DNA from: Corynebacterium sp.
Lineage (GTDB): Bacteria > Actinomycetota > Actinomycetes > Mycobacteriales > Mycobacteriaceae
Length of the DNA: 20,544 nucleotides
Direction: 5' to 3'
NCBI GenBank assembly: GCA_030450335.1
Contig: JAKDIS010000039.1
Span: 1 to 20,544 of the forward strand
Shown: in pieces, positions 2,644 to 18,134 of the stretch
How positions within the stretch are numbered: position 1 is the stretch's first letter
Layout of the letters: the number at the start of each line of letters is the position of its first letter
The notes under the pieces: model-generated
Seen by the model: only the letters and a program-made list of their open reading frames with translations
What the model was told of the DNA's origin: nothing
Database searches by the model: none
Position numbers and translations under genes: made by a program

Positions 2644-5600
2644 CTACCCGCGGCGGACCTCGTCGGCCAGGGCGTGGAACTCGGTGCTCGGGTTACCGAA
2701 GCGGTGCAGCGTCATGGACACGGCCTGCTCCTTGAGCCACAGGCGCAGCTCGACGCGGCCCGAGGCGGTGACCTCGTCGTTGAGCAGGCACACCTCGGGA
2801 CGGTCGGCCAGCGTGGAGAGGGTCTCCGGGTTGCGGGTGCCGATGACACGCACGCGGGCACCGACACCGTCGTCCAGGGCACGCGACGACAGCTGCGCGG
2901 CGAAGTCGTCGTCGTCCGCGGTCGTCATGGTGTGTCCGACGCCCAGGCGGGTGGACGCGGCCAGGACGTCCTGCACCTTGCCGTCCACGGTCGGGTCGAC
3001 GACGACGCGCAGAGGCGAACCGGTGCGGTGGGCGGCGATGACGGCGCGGGCGACCTCGACGGGGCGGGCGTCCGCACTGATCCGCAGCACCACGTGCGCG
3101 GGCCGGTAGCGGAAGATGTTCGCCTCGGCGGTCAGGCCGGTGACGTCGCGCGGGGTGCCGAACTCGGCCTCCCAGGCGTCGTTGTCGGAACGTCCGGCGG
3201 CGGCGAGCCAGGCGGCGTCGGCGACGGACAGGGTGTTCCGACGCTGCAGCTCGGCGATGTAGCCGTCCACCGGGGCGGAGCCGGTGGGCGAGACGGAGGA
3301 ACCGGCGGCGGTGTCGTCGGCCCAGCTGCCCATCAGCATCACGTAGTTCGGGCCGCCGGCCTTGGAACCCAGGCCCACGGAGGACTGCTTCCAGCCGCCG
3401 AAGGACTGACGCTGCACGATCGCGCCGGTGATGCCACGGTTCACGTAGGCGTTGCCGACCTCGATGCGCTCCACCCAGGTGCGCACCTCGGACGGGTCGA
3501 GGCTCTGGATACCGCCGGTCAGGCCGAAGTCCGTGGCGTTCTGCAGGGTGATCGCCTCGTCCAGGTCCTTGGCCTTCATCAGGCCCAGGACCGGGCCGAA
3601 GACCTCGGTGAGGTGGAAGAAGGAGCCCGGCTTCACGCCGTCCTTGATGCCGGGGGACCACAGGCGGCCGGTGTCGTCGAGCTGGCGCGGCTTGAGCAGC
3701 CAGGACTCGCCGTCCTCCAGGGTGGTCATCGCGCGCTGCAGCTTGTCGCTGGGCAGCTCGGTGAGCGGGCCCATGTCGGCGCGCATGTTGGTCGGCCAGT
3801 CGATGATCATCGAGGCGGCGGCGTCGACCAGCTGGCGGCGGAAACGCTCGGAGTCGTACACGCTGCCGACGAGGATGCCGAGGGAGGCCGCGGAGCACTT
3901 CTGGCCGGCGTGGCCGAAGGCGGAGTACACCATGTCGGCGACGGCCAGGTCGCGGTCGGCGGCGGGGGTGACGATCATGCCGTTCTTGCCGGACGTCTCG
4001 GCGTTGATCTTCAGCTCCGGGCGCCAGGACTCGAACATCGCGGCGGTCTCGGAGGCGCCGGTGAGGATCACGCGGTCGACCGAGGGGTGGCTGACGAGGC
4101 TGCGTCCTGCCGTGCGGTCGGCGGGGTACACGCCGCGCAGGACCTCGCGCGGCACGCCGGCGTCCCACAGGGCGTCGAGGATGGCCATGGAGCAGTGCGG
4201 GGTCGGCTTCGACGGCTTGTGGATCACCGCGGCACCGGCGGCCAGCGCGGCGAAGGTGGAGCCGGCGGGGATGGCCAGCGGGAAGTTCCACGGCGGGGTG
4301 ACCAGCACGACCTTGTCGGGCGTGAAGGCGGCGTTGTCGACCTTCTCGAGCTCCAGGGCGTAGTGCGCGTAGTAGCGGGCGAAGTCGATGGCCTCGGAGA
4401 TCTCGGTGTCGGCCTGGGAGACGGCCTTGCCGACCTCGGCGGCGGCGATGGAGACCAGGTGGCCGCGGCGGGCGGCGAGCAGGTCGGCGGTGCGGTACAG
4501 GATCGCGGCGCGCTCGGTGGCCGGGGTCGCGGCCCAGTCGGCGGCGGCGTCGCGGGTGGAGGTGACCAGGGCGTCGACCTCAGCGTCGGCGACGATGGTC
4601 GGCGCGGTCTGGGCGTCCAGCCAGCCGTCCTGCGCGGAGACCGCGATGGCCTCGGCGGCCCACGCCTGGTTGGCGGGCAGTGACGGGTCGGTGTCGGCCT
4701 CGTTGTCGAAGGCGGGCAGGACGCCGTCGGCGTAGGACGCGGCGAGCTCGTCGGACGACGGCTCGACCTCGGCGGAACGGTCCTGCAGGTGGTTGGGCAG
4801 CGGGGCCGTGTAACCGTTGGTGGACAGCAGCTCGGAGAGGTCGCCGAGGGAGGCGCGGAAGCGGGCCTCCTCGCGGCGGAAGATCTCGTTGCCGGGCTCC
4901 AGGTCGAAGATGCCGGACATGAAGTTCGCGCTGGCGGCGTTCTCCTCGAGGCGACGCACCAGGTAGGAGATGGCGACGTCGAACTCCTGGGGACGCACGG
5001 CGGGCACGTAGAGCAGCAGCTGGCCCACGTCCGAGCTCACGGCCTCGGCCTGCTCGGTGGCCATGCCCTGAAGCATCTCGAACTCGACGCGGTCGGTGAC
5101 GCCGCGCTTGACGGACAGCATGTGGGCGAAGGCGATGTCGAAGAGGTTGTGGCCGGCCACGCCCAGGCGCAGGCCGCGCATGTTCTCCGGGTGCATCGTC
5201 CAGTCGAGGACGAGCTTGTAGTTGGCGTCCGTGTCCTGCTTGGAGGCGCAGGTGGTGACGGGCCAGTCGGCGACCTCGGCGTGCACGGTCTCCATGGCCA
5301 GGTTCGCCCCCTTGACCAGGCGGACCTTGATGCCGGCGCCACCGTCGGCGACGCGCTCGTCGGCGAAGGCGGAGAGCTCCTGGATCGCGCCGAGGGCGTC
5401 CGGCAGGTAGGCCTGCAGCACGATGCCGGCCTCCAGGTGTTTGGTCTCCGGCAGGCTGAGCAGGCGGCGGAAGACGGCGATGGTCAGCGTGAGGTCGCGG
5501 TACTCCTCCATGTCCAGGTTGATGAACTTGGAGCCCTTCGGCGCGCGGGCGGCCTCGACGTAGAGCGGGGTGAGGCGCTCGACGATGTAGTCGACGGTGC

Positions 5601-6282
5601 CCTCGAAGCCCCAGAGGCTGATGCGCGAGGCGATGGAGGACGCCTTGATCGAGACGTAGTCCACGTCCGGGCGGGCCAGCAGGCGGCGGGTCTCCTCGAG
5701 GTGGTTGTCGGCCTCGGCCTCGCCGAGGACGGCCTCACCGAGGAGGTTGATGTTCAGGCGGTGGCCACCGGAGGTGAGCTCGGCGACGGCCTTGCCGAAC
5801 TTCTTGTCCCGGGCGTCGACGATCATGTGGCCGACCATGGAGCGGATGCGCTGACGTGCGGCGGGGACCACGATCTGCGGGATGACCGGGGCGAGAGCGG
5901 AACCCATCTTGATCTGCGCCTTGTCGAGGGTGCTGAGGGTGTCCGGCATGATCGAGCCGAGCTCGGCGAGGGCGCGGCCGGCGGCGTGCTGGTCCTCGGT
6001 ACGCACGACCCGGTCGACGAAGCCGACGGTGAAGTCGAGGCCGTTGGGGTCGGAGAGGACGGCGGACAGCCGCTCGGCCGAGGGGTTCGGCTTCACGTCG
6101 GACTTCCGGCTGGCGTTGAGCCAGGCGGTGACCTTGGCGACCGCGGCGTCGGCGAGGGGGGCGAGGTGCTCGGTGGAGACGGCGGAGGTGGTGCCGGCGT
6201 CCTGTGCCGAGGGCTTGACCTCGACCGGGGCCGTGGTTGTGTTCTTCTTCTCCTTGCCGGACGCGGGGTTCGCGGTCGTCAT
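2644..6282 (-). CDS. putA: Bifunctional proline dehydrogenase / P5C dehydrogenase PutA
   Basis: Oxidises proline to P5C (FAD) and then glutamate semialdehyde to glutamate (NAD+). About 1212 residues. The PRODH barrel spans roughly residues 170-470 with RLVKGANLAMETVHAEV (K324) and the substrate-binding RRLEEN at 443-448. The ALDH module spans about 560-1010: PPWNFPLAIP (663-672), a GASETA nucleotide loop (742-747), general-base region ETSGKN (E762; often ETGGKN) and catalytic GQKCSA (C796). A further C-terminal domain of about 190 residues follows, as in type B PutAs. No N-terminal ribbon-helix-helix DNA-binding domain is visible, so it is probably not self-repressing. ATG 6282 was chosen because AGGAGG lies 7 nt upstream; an in-frame extension to 6345 lacks this support. 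It is divergent from the GntR/FadR-like regulator, an obvious candidate controller. Confidence 0.97.
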   Translation of the reverse strand: MTTANPASGKEKKNTTTAPVEVKPSAQDAGTTSAVSTEHLAPLADAAVAKVTAWLNASRKSDVKPNPSAERLSAVLSDPNGLDFTVGFVDRVVRTEDQHAAGRALAELGSIMPDTLSTLDKAQIKMGSALAPVIPQIVVPAARQRIRSMVGHMIVDARDKKFGKAVAELTSGGHRLNINLLGEAVLGEAEADNHLEETRRLLARPDVDYVSIKASSIASRISLWGFEGTVDYIVERLTPLYVEAARAPKGSKFINLDMEEYRDLTLTIAVFRRLLSLPETKHLEAGIVLQAYLPDALGAIQELSAFADERVADGGAGIKVRLVKGANLAMETVHAEVADWPVTTCASKQDTDANYKLVLDWTMHPENMRGLRLGVAGHNLFDIAFAHMLSVKRGVTDRVEFEMLQGMATEQAEAVSSDVGQLLLYVPAVRPQEFDVAISYLVRRLEENAASANFMSGIFDLEPGNEIFRREEARFRASLGDLSELLSTNGYTAPLPNHLQDRSAEVEPSSDELAASYADGVLPAFDNEADTDPSLPANQAWAAEAIAVSAQDGWLDAQTAPTIVADAEVDALVTSTRDAAADWAATPATERAAILYRTADLLAARRGHLVSIAAAEVGKAVSQADTEISEAIDFARYYAHYALELEKVDNAAFTPDKVVLVTPPWNFPLAIPAGSTFAALAAGAAVIHKPSKPTPHCSMAILDALWDAGVPREVLRGVYPADRTAGRSLVSHPSVDRVILTGASETAAMFESWRPELKINAETSGKNGMIVTPAADRDLAVADMVYSAFGHAGQKCSAASLGILVGSVYDSERFRRQLVDAAASMIIDWPTNMRADMGPLTELPSDKLQRAMTTLEDGESWLLKPRQLDDTGRLWSPGIKDGVKPGSFFHLTEVFGPVLGLMKAKDLDEAITLQNATDFGLTGGIQSLDPSEVRTWVERIEVGNAYVNRGITGAIVQRQSFGGWKQSSVGLGSKAGGPNYVMLMGSWADDTAAGSSVSPTGSAPVDGYIAELQRRNTLSVADAAWLAAAGRSDNDAWEAEFGTPRDVTGLTAEANIFRYRPAHVVLRISADARPVEVARAVIAAHRTGSPLRVVVDPTVDGKVQDVLAASTRLGVGHTMTTADDDDFAAQLSSRALDDGVGARVRVIGTRNPETLSTLADRPEVCLLNDEVTASGRVELRLWLKEQAVSMTLHRFGNPSTEFHALADEVRRG

Positions 6283-6346
6283 GGGGTGTCCTCCTCGGAA
6301 GCGTTCTTGATCGATGCGGTTAGGGGTGCCTGCCGCCAATGTCACT

Positions 6347-9105: not shown

Positions 9106-9444
9106 TCAGGCGGGTCGGGCGGAGGTGTCCAGGGCGGAGATGCTGCTGGTGTCGGTGCATTGGCTGGCCTGCCACAGGTCGTATTCCACCTGCAGTCCAA
9201 GCCAGAATTCGGCGGAGTTGCCGAAGTAGGCGGACAGGCGGAGGGCCATGTCGGCACTGACCCCGATGGTTCCGCGCACCAGCTTGGAAATCTGCGAACC
9301 GGTGGTGTGGATGTCCTTGGCCAGGCGGTACTGGGTGACGCCCAACGGTTCCAGGAATTCGATCCGCAGGATCTCGCCGGGGTGGGGAACGGGCACGACT
9401 GCCGCGTCATCGGCGCGGTCAGCGGTGGTAGTCGGTGAAGTCAA
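9106..9444 (-). CDS. higA: HigA-type XRE antitoxin
   Basis: 112 residues. The typical HigA opening HPGEILRIEFLEPLGVTQYRLAKDI leads into an XRE helix-turn-helix (about residues 34-60, recognition helix GSQISKLVRG), then the family signature MALRLSAYFGNSAEFWLGLQVEYDLW. The protein should neutralise the HigB toxin and repress the operon. The start is probably TTG 9444, because AAAGGAG ends 9 nt upstream; TTG 9450 would have only 3 nt. The gene overlaps the end of higB by 26 bp, a toxin-first order usual for higBA. Confidence 0.9.
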   Translation of the reverse strand: MTSPTTTADRADDAAVVPVPHPGEILRIEFLEPLGVTQYRLAKDIHTTGSQISKLVRGTIGVSADMALRLSAYFGNSAEFWLGLQVEYDLWQASQCTDTSSISALDTSARPA

Positions 9445-9736
9445 CGTCAACAGCTCCTTTGTCTGTCCAGATGAATATGATGCGCCACTGTGCATTGACG
9501 CGGATGGAGTGGTAGCCGGTCAGGCTGCCACTGAGGCGTTCGAGATGATTGGCTGGCGGGACACGCAAATCGTTGATGTTGGTGGCACGCGCGATCATCA
9601 CCAGTTTTCGGCGGACGGCTGCTCGGAGCTCCGGGGGGATGTACTTGGGCGCGGCACCGGTGGTGTGGAAGCGCTGCAGGCTGTTTCTCCGGAAGTCCAC
9701 GCAACGTATGGTATCACAGTGTGAAACTAGGATCAC
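9419..9736 (-). CDS. higB: HigB/RelE-family toxin (putative mRNA interferase)
   Basis: About 105 residues from GTG 9736. The sequence follows the HigB plan: TIRCVDFRRNSLQRFHTTG, AAVRRKLVMIARATNINDL, LERLSGSLTGYHSIRVNAQWRIIFIW and C-terminal VDVDFTDYH. HigB toxins cleave mRNA on the ribosome; this is family knowledge. The start is uncertain because HigB proteins usually begin near the TIRC position, where the codon is ATA, so GTG 9736 adds about nine residues. No SD precedes GTG 9736, but TACAGT lies 6 nt upstream, which suggests a leaderless mRNA. Base composition here is clearly more AT-rich than in flanking metabolic genes. Confidence 0.88.
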   Translation of the reverse strand: MILVSHCDTIRCVDFRRNSLQRFHTTGAAPKYIPPELRAAVRRKLVMIARATNINDLRVPPANHLERLSGSLTGYHSIRVNAQWRIIFIWTDKGAVDVDFTDYHR

Positions 9737-13033: not shown

Positions 13034-13786
13034 TCACTGCCGTGTCTGTAGGACGTCGTCCGGACGGAATCCGGCCTCGGTCGCCAGCACGGCGAGCTGC
13101 ACGCGGGACGACGCCCCGAACCGGCCCAGCAGCTGCGAGACCTGCTTCTTCACCATGCTGGACGACCGGCCGGTCTTCCTGCTGATCTCCGCGTTGGACA
13201 TGCCGACGCACAGCAGGGCCAGCACGCGCTCCTCCGAGGCGGGCAGGTGCGGGAGCGTCGGGGCACCCGGATACCGGGGCGGCTCGGCTGCAGGTGGCGC
13301 GTGGTTGGCGCCCTGCAGAGCCGAGTTGTCCGGGGAGTCCTGGGACAGGTGCCGAACCAGGTTCGACGCCGGCTGTGGACTGACCACAGTTCCGCCGCCG
13401 ACGGTGGCGAGCACCGTATCGATGATGAACTCGGGACGTGAACTCTTCAGAATGTAACCCCGCCCGCCCTGGGCGAGGACGGAGAGCATCGTCTCCTCCT
13501 CGTCCAGAGCGGTCATCGCCACGAAGACCGGGGGGTCCGGTAGCTCCTGGATTCTTCCCAGGAGTTCCACGCCGTCCATACCGGGCATGTGGATGTCGGC
13601 GAGGACGACGTCGACAGGGGTCTCCGGGGTGCAGGCGTCGAGGATCTCGAGTGCGCCTTGGCTTGTGGACGCCTCGCCGACGACCTCGATCTGCTCGCCC
13701 GCAGGCGAGCCGAAGTAGAGGCGCAGCGACGAGAGGACGAGTGGGTCGTCGTCCACGATCAGTAGGCGGACAGGGCTTGAGTGCAT
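13034..13786 (-). CDS. NarL/FixJ-type LuxR response regulator
   Basis: 250 residues. The receiver domain has acidic pocket D12-D13 (LLIVDDDP), phospho-acceptor D64 in VLADIHMPGMDG, T92 (MTAL) and K114 (ILKSS), so it looks phosphorylatable. A Pro/Ala-rich linker of about 30 residues leads to a LuxR-type HTH at about 182-237 (LPASEERVLALLCVGMSNAEISRKTG). ATG 13786 is chosen because it begins MHSSPVRLLIVDDDP; a longer GTG start at 13831 would overlap the peptide gene and lacks an SD. It lies 26 bp downstream of the peptide gene and its obvious partner is the histidine kinase at 14089-15375. Targets are unknown; autoregulation of the operon is possible. Confidence 0.93.
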   Translation of the reverse strand: MHSSPVRLLIVDDDPLVLSSLRLYFGSPAGEQIEVVGEASTSQGALEILDACTPETPVDVVLADIHMPGMDGVELLGRIQELPDPPVFVAMTALDEEETMLSVLAQGGRGYILKSSRPEFIIDTVLATVGGGTVVSPQPASNLVRHLSQDSPDNSALQGANHAPPAAEPPRYPGAPTLPHLPASEERVLALLCVGMSNAEISRKTGRSSSMVKKQVSQLLGRFGASSRVQLAVLATEAGFRPDDVLQTRQ

Positions 13787-13812
13787 GTCAGACAGATTGC
13801 TGGTGATATGTC

Positions 13813-14055
13813 TCAGCGTCCGCGGCACCACGGGTGGTACGGGTGGTACTTGCAGTTGAAGATGTCGAAGGCGGCGCGCTTGGCGTCAACGGTCCACGAC
13901 CCGGAAAGGCCCGAGGATACGGCTGACGACGAGGTGGTGGAAGCTTCGGGGAGTGCGGTGTCTGCGGATGCCACGCCGGAAAGCAACCCGCCTGTGAGGA
14001 TCGCGCTGGTGGCTGCCAGGACGAGCTTGCGGCCCAGTGGTGTCGAGTGGGACAT
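13813..14055 (-). CDS. small secreted two-cysteine peptide precursor
   Basis: 80 residues, no family recognised. The N-terminus is a clear Sec signal peptide: GRK at 8-10, a hydrophobic core LVLAATSAILTGGLLSGV, and ASA at 29-31 before D32. The predicted mature peptide is about 49 residues: a Ser/Thr/Ala-rich half, SGSWTVDAKRAAFDIF, then NCKYHPYHPWCRGR. C68 and C77 could form a ten-residue disulfide ring rich in Tyr, His, Pro and Trp. Translation is well supported: AAGGAG lies 5 nt before ATG 14055. It is 33 bp after the histidine kinase and 26 bp before the response regulator, all on the same strand. A signal, antimicrobial peptide or target of the two-component system are all possible. Confidence 0.82.
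   Translation of the reverse strand: MSHSTPLGRKLVLAATSAILTGGLLSGVASADTALPEASTTSSSAVSSGLSGSWTVDAKRAAFDIFNCKYHPYHPWCRGR
13831..13848. repeat. 9-bp tandem repeat inside the peptide gene
   Basis: CGGGTGGTA occurs twice in tandem on the plus strand. It encodes the duplicated Tyr-His-Pro of the candidate ring in the secreted peptide. Confidence 0.8.
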
Positions 14056-14088
14056 AGGTGCTCCTTGGATCGAGGTGAGGGGTGTTTA

Positions 14089-15375
14089 TCAAGATTTGGT
14101 AACAACTATAGGCAGTCTGAGGGTTGTACGCCAGAAGTACGTTTCCCCTCCCCCCGCTCCGGGTAGCTCGGGGGCTTCAACAGTGCTATCACCGGTGCGC
14201 CCGCCGTGAAGTCGGGCGGTCAACGTACCCCCGGCCTTTGTCGCTCGGGCTCGCATGGAACCCAGCCCCATACCCCCGGACGTCAATTCGTCCGGCGGGG
14301 TGGGGCGTCGCGTCGGGTTCGTCATACTGACTTCGAACACGTCGCCATCGACCCGGCACTCCAGGTGGATGGTCGCGCGAGGAGAGGAGTGCTTCGCCGC
14401 GTTGGACGTCATCTCCGTGAGGACCTTGATGACGGTGTCGCGGTCTGTCCACGCGGCGGCATCGGCCTTGGTTGACTCCGCCGGTGCAGGGTCGTTCAGT
14501 ACCGCAGCTATGCCTGGTGGCAGTTGAAGTCTCGCGCGGAGTTGCAGCGAGTGAGCCTCGAGTTCCTGCTCGATCCTTCCGACGGCGACATCCAGGGGAG
14601 GACTGGCGGTGCGGGTGCGGAAGGACACTCTGTTCGGCTTCTCGTTGAGCAACTGCAGCATGGTGCGGAGATTCGACAACGCTTCGCGTGAAGACTCGGA
14701 GATATTCTCCAGACTCTGCCGATGGTTGTGCTCCTCGCCGGGGGGCAGCAGGGTGAGCGCCTGGGCCTGCATCACCACGCTGGTCAGCGAGGTGGCCACC
14801 GAATCGTGCAGCTCGCGGGCCAGCTCGAGGCGCTGTTCACGCTCCTGTTCGGCGAGCGAAGCCCGCATGTTCTTCTGCTGACGTTGGTGCCGGTCGCGGG
14901 TGTATCCGAGCAGGAGAGCGGCGGTGAGCATGATGCCACCGACCGTGAGCGAGACTATGTCAGTCATGAGTGCCTGGGCCACCGGATCGATCGCGGCGAG
15001 GACCCAATGGGCGAAAGTGAGGCAGACCGCAAGCAAAATCTGGCCACTGGCGGCGACGATCTCCACGATCAGCATCGTGAAGAAGACCGAGTACAGCGGA
15101 AGGAGATCAGCTACCAGAAAGGACGACAGGACCATCAGCAGGGACAACGTCGAGACTGCCACCGGGAACTTTGCGGCGCAGGCGATGAGCGCCAAGGTGA
15201 CTACCGCGTAGCCCGTCGTTCCTGCCGAGGCGGGGCTGGGGGCCTCCATCAGCTCGAAACCCATGAGCGATGCGGCGAGCACGGTCTCGACCACACCGAG
15301 CCGGGTGATCCGGCTGGCCCGCAGCATGCGGAGCAGCCGGTTGGGGCGGTGAGGCGCCCGGGTTGGAGAGTTCAC
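14089..15375 (-). CDS. membrane histidine kinase, HisKA_3 (NarX/DesK-like) type
   Basis: 428 residues. The first 160 hold about five to six hydrophobic helices (about 28-43, 53-70, 72-90, 93-121, 138-157) with short loops and no large extracellular sensor domain. A coiled-coil-like basic/acidic stretch (160-188) leads to the H-box ARELHDSVATSL with H190. The ATPase domain has N-box TEMTSNAAKHSS (N325) and G-box GGMGLGSMRARA (367-378). Near the C-terminus is a Gly/Glu-rich insertion (about 391-411). The start is GTG 15375, 12 bp after the aminotransferase stop, with AGGA upstream. It presumably phosphorylates the response regulator encoded two genes downstream. The many-helix, loop-poor sensor is compatible with a membrane-associated or small peptide ligand. 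Confidence 0.93.
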   Translation of the reverse strand: MNSPTRAPHRPNRLLRMLRASRITRLGVVETVLAASLMGFELMEAPSPASAGTTGYAVVTLALIACAAKFPVAVSTLSLLMVLSSFLVADLLPLYSVFFTMLIVEIVAASGQILLAVCLTFAHWVLAAIDPVAQALMTDIVSLTVGGIMLTAALLLGYTRDRHQRQQKNMRASLAEQEREQRLELARELHDSVATSLTSVVMQAQALTLLPPGEEHNHRQSLENISESSREALSNLRTMLQLLNEKPNRVSFRTRTASPPLDVAVGRIEQELEAHSLQLRARLQLPPGIAAVLNDPAPAESTKADAAAWTDRDTVIKVLTEMTSNAAKHSSPRATIHLECRVDGDVFEVSMTNPTRRPTPPDELTSGGMGLGSMRARATKAGGTLTARLHGGRTGDSTVEAPELPGAGGGETYFWRTTLRLPIVVTKS

Positions 15376-16749: not shown

Positions 16750-18000
16750 CTACTGGGGGCTGTCCTCCCCTGACTCCCCGCCGCCGGTTCCGGCACCGCC
16801 GGACTCGCCGTTGTCGGTGCCGTCACCGGTGTCGGTGCCGCCACCGGTGCCATTGCCGGTACCGCCGCCGTTGTTCCCGGTACCGGTCCCGTTTCCGGAG
16901 TTGTTTCCGGAGTTGTTGCCGTTCCCCGAGTTGTTCCCGTTCCCGTTCCCGTTGTTGCCGCTGTTGCCGCTGTTGCCGCCACCGGAGTTTTCAGAGGGGG
17001 AGGACGGTGCCTGCGACGACGGTGACGCCGGCGCGGAATCCTCGGACTCCTCCGGGGAGGGGGAGTAGTACTCGTCGGGCTCGTCGTACTCGGGTTCGTA
17101 GTAGGTGGAACCGGAGTCGGAGCCACTGTTCGGCTGCGCGGTGGGGATCGGGCTGCTGGGGTCCCAGGCCTCGCGGGTGGGGTAGTTCGGTTCCACGCTG
17201 CTGTAGGGCGACTGGCGCTCCTGGTCGCTGCCGGAGTTCATCATGGCGACGGCGGTCGCCGCCCCGCCGACGGACAGCACCCCGCCGATCACGAGGATCC
17301 ACCCCCAGGTGGGGAAGCGCCCGTACCAGGGGCGCGAGGAGTTCTTCGTGGACGTCCCGTCGCCACTACCACTGCCGCCACTGCTGCTGCCGGTCCCCGT
17401 GCCGGACGCCGCGGCGGCGCTGCCGGACGCGGCCGACTCTCCGGTCCCGGTGGACGCTGCGCTGGACGTGGTCGGGGCGTCGGCTGACGCTTCGCCCGAC
17501 GTTCCGGTCGACGCGCTGGCCGCGCCTGCCGACCCTGCGGCGCCAGCCGCTCCCGCCGCACCGGCGACACCGGCCAGGGGGAGGACGCTGGTCGCGGAAT
17601 CCTCGTCGGAGCCCGCGTCCGTGCTTGGGCCGGCATTCGGGCCGGCGTCCCCGCCCGGGGCGTGCTTGAGTTCGTGGCCGGAGATCTGCTCGTCGTCCAC
17701 GACGGGGATGATGCCGGTGACCTCGGGGTCGTTGGTGGACCCCAGGGGCGCCTCGGCCTCCCCGGCGTCCCCGGTGTCGTCGGTCACCTCGGCGGATTCG
17801 GCGTCGATGACCTCGGTGTTCTCGTCGGAGTCGTCGCGCGCGCCGGAGTCGTCGATCTCGGCGGCGAAACCGTCGGTGCCGTCGGAACTCCCGGAACCGG
17901 CGGCATCGCCGCCCATGGTGAACTCGGTGTCCTCGAACGCGTCAGTGTCGCGCGGGAGGTCGTCACCATGGTGGCGGTGGGGGTCTGAGGGGTTGCTCAT
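16750..18000 (-). CDS. single-pass membrane protein with Gly/Asn/Ser-rich tail
   Basis: 416 residues, no family recognised. Residues 1-230 are acidic and Ala/Gly/Ser/Thr-rich, with an AGAAGAAGAAGSAGAA stretch near 146-161, ending in basic SSRPWYGRFP. One hydrophobic helix follows (232-254). Residues 255-416 start with Pro/Tyr/Glu-rich sequence (YYEPEYDEPDEYYSPSPEE) and end in long GN/GT-rich low complexity. The basic flank before the helix predicts N-in, C-out topology, with the tail reaching the cell envelope. ATG 18000 is preferred to GTG 18048 for its typical start; a partial SD (GAAGAG) precedes it. It lies 96 bp upstream of the alaT start. Function is unknown. Confidence 0.75.
   Translation of the reverse strand: MSNPSDPHRHHGDDLPRDTDAFEDTEFTMGGDAAGSGSSDGTDGFAAEIDDSGARDDSDENTEVIDAESAEVTDDTGDAGEAEAPLGSTNDPEVTGIIPVVDDEQISGHELKHAPGGDAGPNAGPSTDAGSDEDSATSVLPLAGVAGAAGAAGAAGSAGAASASTGTSGEASADAPTTSSAASTGTGESAASGSAAAASGTGTGSSSGGSGSGDGTSTKNSSRPWYGRFPTWGWILVIGGVLSVGGAATAVAMMNSGSDQERQSPYSSVEPNYPTREAWDPSSPIPTAQPNSGSDSGSTYYEPEYDEPDEYYSPSPEESEDSAPASPSSQAPSSPSENSGGGNSGNSGNNGNGNGNNSGNGNNSGNNSGNGTGTGNNGGGTGNGTGGGTDTGDGTDNGESGGAGTGGGESGEDSPQ
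16840..16985. repeat. in-frame short repeats coding Gly/Asn/Ser tail
   Basis: Runs of short units such as TTGCCGCTG (three near 16956-16980), GTTTCCGGA and TTCCCG. Length variation between strains by slippage is expected. Confidence 0.7.
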
Positions 18001-18134
18001 CTGGTCTCTTCGTCTCGTCACACGGTTCTGCGACGTGCCGAGTGGCACCGGCGCGGGGAACGGTCGCGTCCATTCTAGCCCCCGTCGACCGTCTCACTAA
18101 CCCACGGCGGCGTCGGACGTGTCGCCGGCACCGC
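18001..18134. other. gap between hydrolase stop and membrane-protein start
   Basis: Both neighbours are on the minus strand. The gap has a small GTGCC-GAGT-GGCAC hairpin near 18035-18048. No gene or clear promoter box was identified. Confidence 0.35.

Follow-up and report, generated by a model that had tools for sequence, protein, structure and literature searches.

The window analysed here, a stretch of 20,544 nucleotides of Corynebacterium DNA, carries on its reverse strand a two-component system of the HisKA_3/NarL type, with a HisKA_3 domain in the kinase and a receiver/GerE regulator alongside, and a short gene for a putative secreted peptide between the two. The genes and features of this module are the following:

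14089..15375, reverse strand: sensor histidine kinase of 428 amino acids, HisKA_3 with a DesK-like core (Pfam, E 1.6e-13)
14881..15324, reverse strand: approximately residues 18-165 of the kinase, its membrane sensor region (limits set by hand from the model)
14061..14066, reverse strand: Shine-Dalgarno sequence AAGGAG, 5 nt ahead of the peptide ATG (read from the sequence)
13813..14055, reverse strand: putative secreted peptide precursor of 80 amino acids (open reading frame and relatives)
13963..14055, reverse strand: probable Sec signal peptide, with cleavage after ASA at residue 31 (by inspection)
13825..13854, reverse strand: ring segment C68-C77 (CKYHPYHPWC), where the family is conserved (alignments)
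13034..13831, reverse strand: NarL/LuxR-type response regulator (Response_reg, E 4e-20; GerE, E 6e-6)

An earlier note on this DNA had described the kinase, the 80-residue Sec-type precursor and the NarL-type regulator as collinear, with gaps of 33 and 26 bp, and this arrangement was confirmed: 33 bp lie between the kinase stop and the peptide start, and 26 bp between the peptide stop and the regulator ATG at 13786. A GTG at 13831 is the other candidate start of the regulator and would overlap the peptide gene. The AAGGAG sequence reported at a spacing of 5 nt from the peptide ATG was likewise recovered. The precursor begins with a positively charged N-terminus, followed by a hydrophobic stretch, the ASA site and the C-terminus NCKYHPYHPWCRGR, in which C68 and C77 occupy the positions given in that note and would, if oxidised, close a ring of ten residues. 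No Pfam or NCBIfam family matched the window precursor at E 0.1, and a scan for promoters and terminators around the operon found no pattern. In an AlphaFold2 model of the kinase (mean pLDDT 74.9, pTM 0.42), six helices joined by short loops make up the sensor region, in agreement with the five to six helices proposed before, and the best structural match of the kinase model identified by Foldseek is the DesK core (E 2e-7). On this model the kinase is polytopic, and its membrane sensor has hardly any extracytoplasmic domain.

The module is neighboured by an aminotransferase gene and dcd. The Pfam scan of the window covered 15 of its proteins, a part of all open reading frames. Also encoded on the reverse strand are a DSBA-like protein with a thioredoxin domain and no obvious signal peptide (1847-2572), a bifunctional proline dehydrogenase/aldehyde dehydrogenase (2644-6345) and a HigB-like toxin with an adjoining HTH protein (9106-9736; HigB-like_toxin E 1.5e-24, HTH_3 E 7.2e-7), which are likely a toxin-antitoxin pair. 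Beside the aminotransferase lies the gene for a long protein of low complexity, rich in Ser, Gly and Asn and with a single hydrophobic stretch (16750-18048, reverse strand), for which no Pfam match was found; similar proteins are encoded at two of the other loci collected in this work (L076 and L078).

A protein search with the window precursor returned only two close relatives besides itself, and similar precursors were found by synteny at the same place in the kinase loci of related species. The kinase, the peptide and a regulator profile served as queries against 242 Corynebacterium genomes, 134 loci were fetched, and the stretch ahead of the regulator was read for small open reading frames; of the 72 genomes with a kinase match, six are left out of the fetched loci, as are several weaker regulator matches. 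The regulators of the other loci were recognised as related by profile. With the window included, and with three loci dropped that have no regulator in the stretch (L074, L079 and L138), 132 loci with a regulator were obtained, 14 of which have no related kinase and were set aside, three of them with a peptide (L133, L140 and L186). A related kinase and a regulator occur together at 118 loci, counting that of the window; the precursor is present in 108 of these and absent from ten (L120, L128, L141, L164, L167, L193, L196, L197, L202 and L203). Of 32 loci without a small-ORF match, 22 were read in three frames, which added L129 and L161, the latter with Leu in place of Trp. The count of 108 includes two members that look damaged, L115 (G163), where Ser replaces the second Cys, and L129 (G097), which has an in-frame stop in the signal sequence; either sequencing error or decay could account for these changes. 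At least 107 of the 242 Corynebacterium genomes carry the peptide, a lower bound because the genome searches score a limited number of candidates per genome. By genome count, two loci occur in five genomes, and a sixth, G145, has two full-length profile matches; carriers named in protein or contig records include C. glyciniphilum, C. kalidii and C. bouchesdurhonense. The family is genus-wide in Corynebacterium, a distribution that was not seen in the earlier note.

The precursors are 38-88 amino acids long, with starts chosen by us, and they are highly divergent, their likeness being restricted to about the last 15-25 residues, where the segment often reads D-x-F-x-C-x(4-8)-W-C. Among the 108 distinct precursors, which are the distinct sequences from 111 loci and a different count from the 108 of 118 loci given above, F stands two residues before the first C in 76 and D four before it in 63; the spacing from the first to the second C is 4, 5, 7, 8 or 10 residues, and W precedes the second C in 101. 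With regard to variable cysteines, which the earlier note had named as an observation that would speak against its proposal, two damaged members were seen (L115, with Ser for the second Cys, and L129, with the in-frame stop), and the constancy of C and W in the others is partly by construction, because the selection of peptides required a C-x(3-9)-[WYF][C or S] end. An [AVS]xA site occurs at the expected place in 90 of the 108 and is missing in 18. In L092 and L110, the shortest forms, the part beyond the signal peptide comprises about 17 residues and is hardly longer than the ring. Searches of Pfam, NCBIfam and PDB sequences with the peptide alignment yielded only weak matches, mostly to N-terminal signal-like parts.

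Reading frames of this kind are far more frequent at the regulator start than in the rest of the loci. Within a 320-bp stretch at the regulator start, a qualifying frame (small, with a hydrophobic start, a C-x(3-9)-[WYF]C end and its stop within the stretch) was found in 100 of 132 loci on the coding strand and in 0 of 132 on the opposite strand. The rest of the loci, 1.79 Mb when counted by strand, contains 23 such frames or 0.004 per 320 bp, and nine of the 23 are family members outside the counted stretch; seven loci with the gene further from the regulator were found by the same small-ORF scan. All 99 full-length profile matches listed (those that reach profile position 56 or more; 93 genomes) sit within 2.7 kb of the regulator, 90 of them at a distance of 120 bp or less, three at 121-211 bp and six at about 2.6 kb; orphans far from any regulator may have escaped, because the profile was derived from linked members and at most 25 candidates were scored per genome. 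Homologues without a two-component neighbour, the other observation that the earlier note had set against its proposal, did not occur among these 99 full-length matches listed, the profile being built from linked members. At the six loci with the match at about 2.6 kb (L085-L088, L094 and L104), the peptide gene is found beyond a cluster of secreted-protein genes; in these loci and in L091 and L198 the gene does not lie between kinase and regulator and is still near the regulator. A search of 401 genomes drawn from the family, Corynebacterium included, gave three matches outside Corynebacterium at E 1e-4, which cover only the N-terminal part of the profile.

Besides the kinase and the regulator, clustering found no gene family in more than 17 loci, and by profile one secreted family recurs in 29; on these recurrence counts, no exporter, immunity or modification gene accompanies the peptide within the 2-4 kb flanks read, and apart from the secreted family the recurrent neighbours are lineage-specific only. 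The secreted family is represented in 29 of 135 loci (L085-L088, L090, L094, L099, L104, L116, L119, L124, L129, L134, L135, L144, L146, L147, L161, L166, L169, L170, L172, L174, L177-L181 and L198) by a single gene or up to four in tandem, whose secreted-looking products have about 200 amino acids or are of a longer form, and which mostly lie just after the regulator; none was seen in the window's own locus. Searches of Pfam, NCBIfam and PDB sequences gave no informative match for these proteins, which may be an output of the kinase/peptide system. They may resemble pore-forming proteins, a likeness on which no claim is based.

In 17 independent pairs of relatives' peptide genes, the differences at the first, second and third codon positions number 50, 19 and 141. 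For the whole gene pN/pS is 0.25; the C-terminal part has 0.12 and the part ahead of it 0.34. Both the codon pattern and these ratios fit a gene that is translated and subject to purifying selection, and by this measure the ring segment is the constrained part of the peptide. Its co-divergence with the kinase was assessed in 40 disjoint close pairs drawn from 98 non-redundant loci (L115 was left out, and L129 enters one pair of the 40). Given the catalytic domain and the regulator, the divergence of the ring segment follows that of the sensor with a partial r of 0.59 (permutation p 0.0002), whereas the corresponding value for the catalytic domain, given the others, is -0.05, and the signal peptide, taken as a control, gives 0.14 with the sensor (p 0.19). 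Over other cut-offs, other segment lengths and five random pairings, the ring segment yields 0.46-0.60 and the signal-peptide control 0.02-0.47, the control being significant in two of these reruns (0.47, p 0.012; 0.36, p 0.0115). The second half of the sensor tracks the ring segment more strongly (0.65) than the first (0.26). In a pseudo-sensor control that omitted the true sensor, the rest of the catalytic domain correlated with the ring segment at r 0.57 and with the signal peptide at 0.42; part of the signal is therefore common to the whole kinase. A distance correlation over all pairs of the 98 loci was set aside for the disjoint close pairs, the sensor being saturated (median 83% different); its result is weak and rather in favour of the catalytic part (sensor 0.06, p 0.044; catalytic part 0.22, p 0.001).

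A hypervariable block was observed in a clade of seven close genomes (L095, L103, L109, L111, L114, L118 and L143; 15-21 genome pairs per step). From the kinase start to the peptide end, the DNA of this clade diverges by 0.13-0.38 per site, with 0.33-0.38 in the sensor and 0.19-0.30 from there to the end of the peptide gene; the upstream DNA mostly differs by 0.02-0.06, with one spot at 0.15, and the regulator and the DNA beyond by 0.04-0.13; taken together, the DNA around the block differs for the most part by 2-10%. Synonymous differences are high in the kinase (0.68) and the peptide (0.57) and lower in the regulator (0.28) and a downstream gene (0.22), and the kinase-peptide alleles are therefore older than, or foreign to, their surroundings. 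The peptide groups match the sensors, not the catalytic domains, L111, L118 and L143 forming one group and L103 and L109 another; between L111 and L095, which have different peptides, the catalytic part differs by 5%, the regulator by 1% and the sensor by 38%. Four sibling kinases of the same genomes served as a control: three reach at most 0.15 and one 0.21 (one family in six genomes only), and non-kinase DNA beyond one sibling system reaches 0.25. Among four clades compared, the block is clear in one, moderate in one and absent in two. The synonymous difference of the sensor exceeds that of the regulator more than 1.5-fold in 12 of 30 disjoint pairs, with the catalytic part raised as much. 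Kinases about 50% different stand over regulators about 5% different in L136 and L137, which have the peptide, and L128 and L141, which have none.

Gene order, conservation, a frame under purifying selection, linkage, co-divergence with the sensor and a hypervariable block in one clade are the observations to be explained, and the evolution of the peptide suggests a signal recognised by the kinase. On balance we favour a three-gene signalling module in which an exported ring peptide is read by the neighbouring kinase. The peptide itself is best read as acting on its kinase, either as ligand or as modulator, and probably as a pheromone that is secreted by Sec and has a disulfide ring. After Sec export of the precursor and cleavage by signal peptidase, oxidation would close the disulfide ring; through its C-terminal segment, which in many members reads D-x-F-x-C-x4-8-W-C, the peptide would bind the membrane-embedded sensor of the neighbouring kinase, the kinase would pass phosphate to the NarL-type regulator, and specificity groups would arise as peptide and sensor change together. 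Export, cleavage, ring closure, free diffusion, binding, the sign of the effect and the regulon are the components of this scheme that we infer. Density sensing or the sensing of self and kin would be its natural use, because the ligand would be self-made and leave the cell. The earlier note had offered three guesses, a ligand, an antimicrobial sensed by the system and a periplasmic accessory, and the first has come out as the best supported, by the genus-wide linkage, the co-divergence with the sensor and the agr-like block in one clade. Counted against this reading are the weak all-pairs correlation, the two reruns in which the signal-peptide control also followed the sensor, the 18 of 108 precursors without [AVS]xA, the ten of 118 loci without a peptide gene, a block that is clear in one of four clades, the empty scan for promoters and terminators, and a ring more conserved than expected of most pheromones. 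A wider proposal, to which we give not quite an even chance, is a genus-wide quorum-sensing system of Sec-secreted disulfide-ring pheromones and DesK-like kinases, with exchangeable cassettes of kinase and peptide and with pherotypes, in which the secreted cluster of some lineages may be the output.

The main rival, which we regard as rather unlikely, is a membrane-tethered or cell-bound modulator of the kinase, acting as MgrB does on PhoQ and involving no cell-cell communication. Its hydrophobic N-terminus would be an anchor, its cysteines redox-responsive and its ring in touch with the sensor, often in negative feedback. Such a modulator would explain most of the facts: the family often keeps D, F, two C and W as MgrB does, 18 of 108 precursors have no cleavage motif, and the co-divergence with the sensor fits equally. 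It would fit less well with the [AVS]xA motif that follows the hydrophobic stretch in 90 of 108, with the weaker constraint before the ring than within it (pN/pS 0.34 vs 0.12), this N-terminal part showing no tracking of the sensor in the main test, unlike the membrane part of MgrB, on which PhoQ binding depends (PMC8404706), and with the old alleles of the hypervariable block, for which a private feedback protein gives no reason. A peptide secreted in an accessory or structural role, placed in the operon for expression only and making no contact with the kinase, would produce an identical operon-like order; we consider it improbable, given that the gene stays near the regulator in the eight loci where it is not between kinase and regulator, that the peptide co-diverges with the sensor, and that strongly different kinases over similar regulators differ also in having it (present in L136 and L137, absent in L128 and L141). 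Slightly less credible still is a bacteriocin-like antimicrobial, with the adjacent system either controlling its production or sensing its presence. The small size, apparent secretion and possible disulfide ring of the peptide and its differences among close genomes of one clade might suggest this; against it stand the lack of any recurrent exporter, immunity or modification gene within the 2-4 kb flanks read and the strong purifying selection on the ring (pN/pS 0.12).

If the peptide is indeed the ligand of its kinase, at least 107 of 242 Corynebacterium genomes encode both a ligand and its receptor, in naturally varying forms, and the length of the ring peptides is within easy reach of synthesis. 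The module would show a ligand and its receptor co-evolving where the receptor is a membrane sensor of the DesK type, for which few ligands are known, and it would be a peptide communication system not known before in these bacteria. No Corynebacterium peptide pheromone system turned up in searches of open-licence PMC papers, and a review of actinobacterial quorum sensing from 2016, in the portion available, mentions Corynebacterium in connection with LuxR-type domains only (PMC4748050). In another study, medium in which several Corynebacterium species had been cultured is reported to lower the agr activity of S. aureus, that of C. striatum also after a 3-kDa filter (PMC4988121). The putative ring peptides might underlie such small factors, secreted by Corynebacterium and active on other bacteria; in this respect the effect on S. 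aureus is a lead only.

Among known systems, DesK-DesR shares with the module the kinase core, which gives the best structural matches, and a NarL-type partner; DesK is not known to have a peptide partner. For MgrB, one study reports two essential periplasmic cysteines, the importance of D31, F34 and W47, and a membrane part required for PhoQ binding (PMC8404706). The Corynebacterium peptide is likewise a small protein with two putatively extracytoplasmic cysteines, D, F and W and a kinase as its proposed target; it differs in the cleavage motifs present in most members (90 of 108). No Pfam or NCBIfam match to the MgrB family was found among the 58 peptide members scanned, and PhoQ belongs to another kinase family than the HisKA_3/DesK-like kinase.

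The agr system of Firmicutes consists of a secreted cyclic peptide (a thiolactone), a polytopic HPK10 kinase, a LytTR regulator and AgrB, and it has a hypervariable block over peptide and sensor between conserved flanks. The Corynebacterium module resembles it in a putatively secreted ring peptide encoded beside a polytopic kinase; a hypervariable block of peptide and sensor is clear in one of four clades, moderate in one and absent in two. The module has two cysteines in place of a thiolactone, a HisKA_3/DesK-like kinase in place of HPK10, a GerE regulator in place of LytTR and a precursor with an ordinary Sec-type signal. Neither AgrB nor the ComQ prenyltransferase was found among the 15 window proteins scanned with Pfam, and no such family recurs by clustering of the loci. 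ComQXPA of Bacillus combines a polytopic HisKA_3 kinase and a NarL-type regulator with an in-operon peptide that contains a tryptophan, and it forms pherotypes. All of these traits, namely the kinase, the regulator, a small in-operon peptide, its tryptophan and, as proposed, pherotypes, have their likeness in the Corynebacterium module, in which, unlike ComQXPA, the peptide has a Sec-type signal and two cysteines and its gene is placed between kinase and regulator. By analogy, the peptide module would work like agr or ComQXPA while being, on the features tested, a member of neither.
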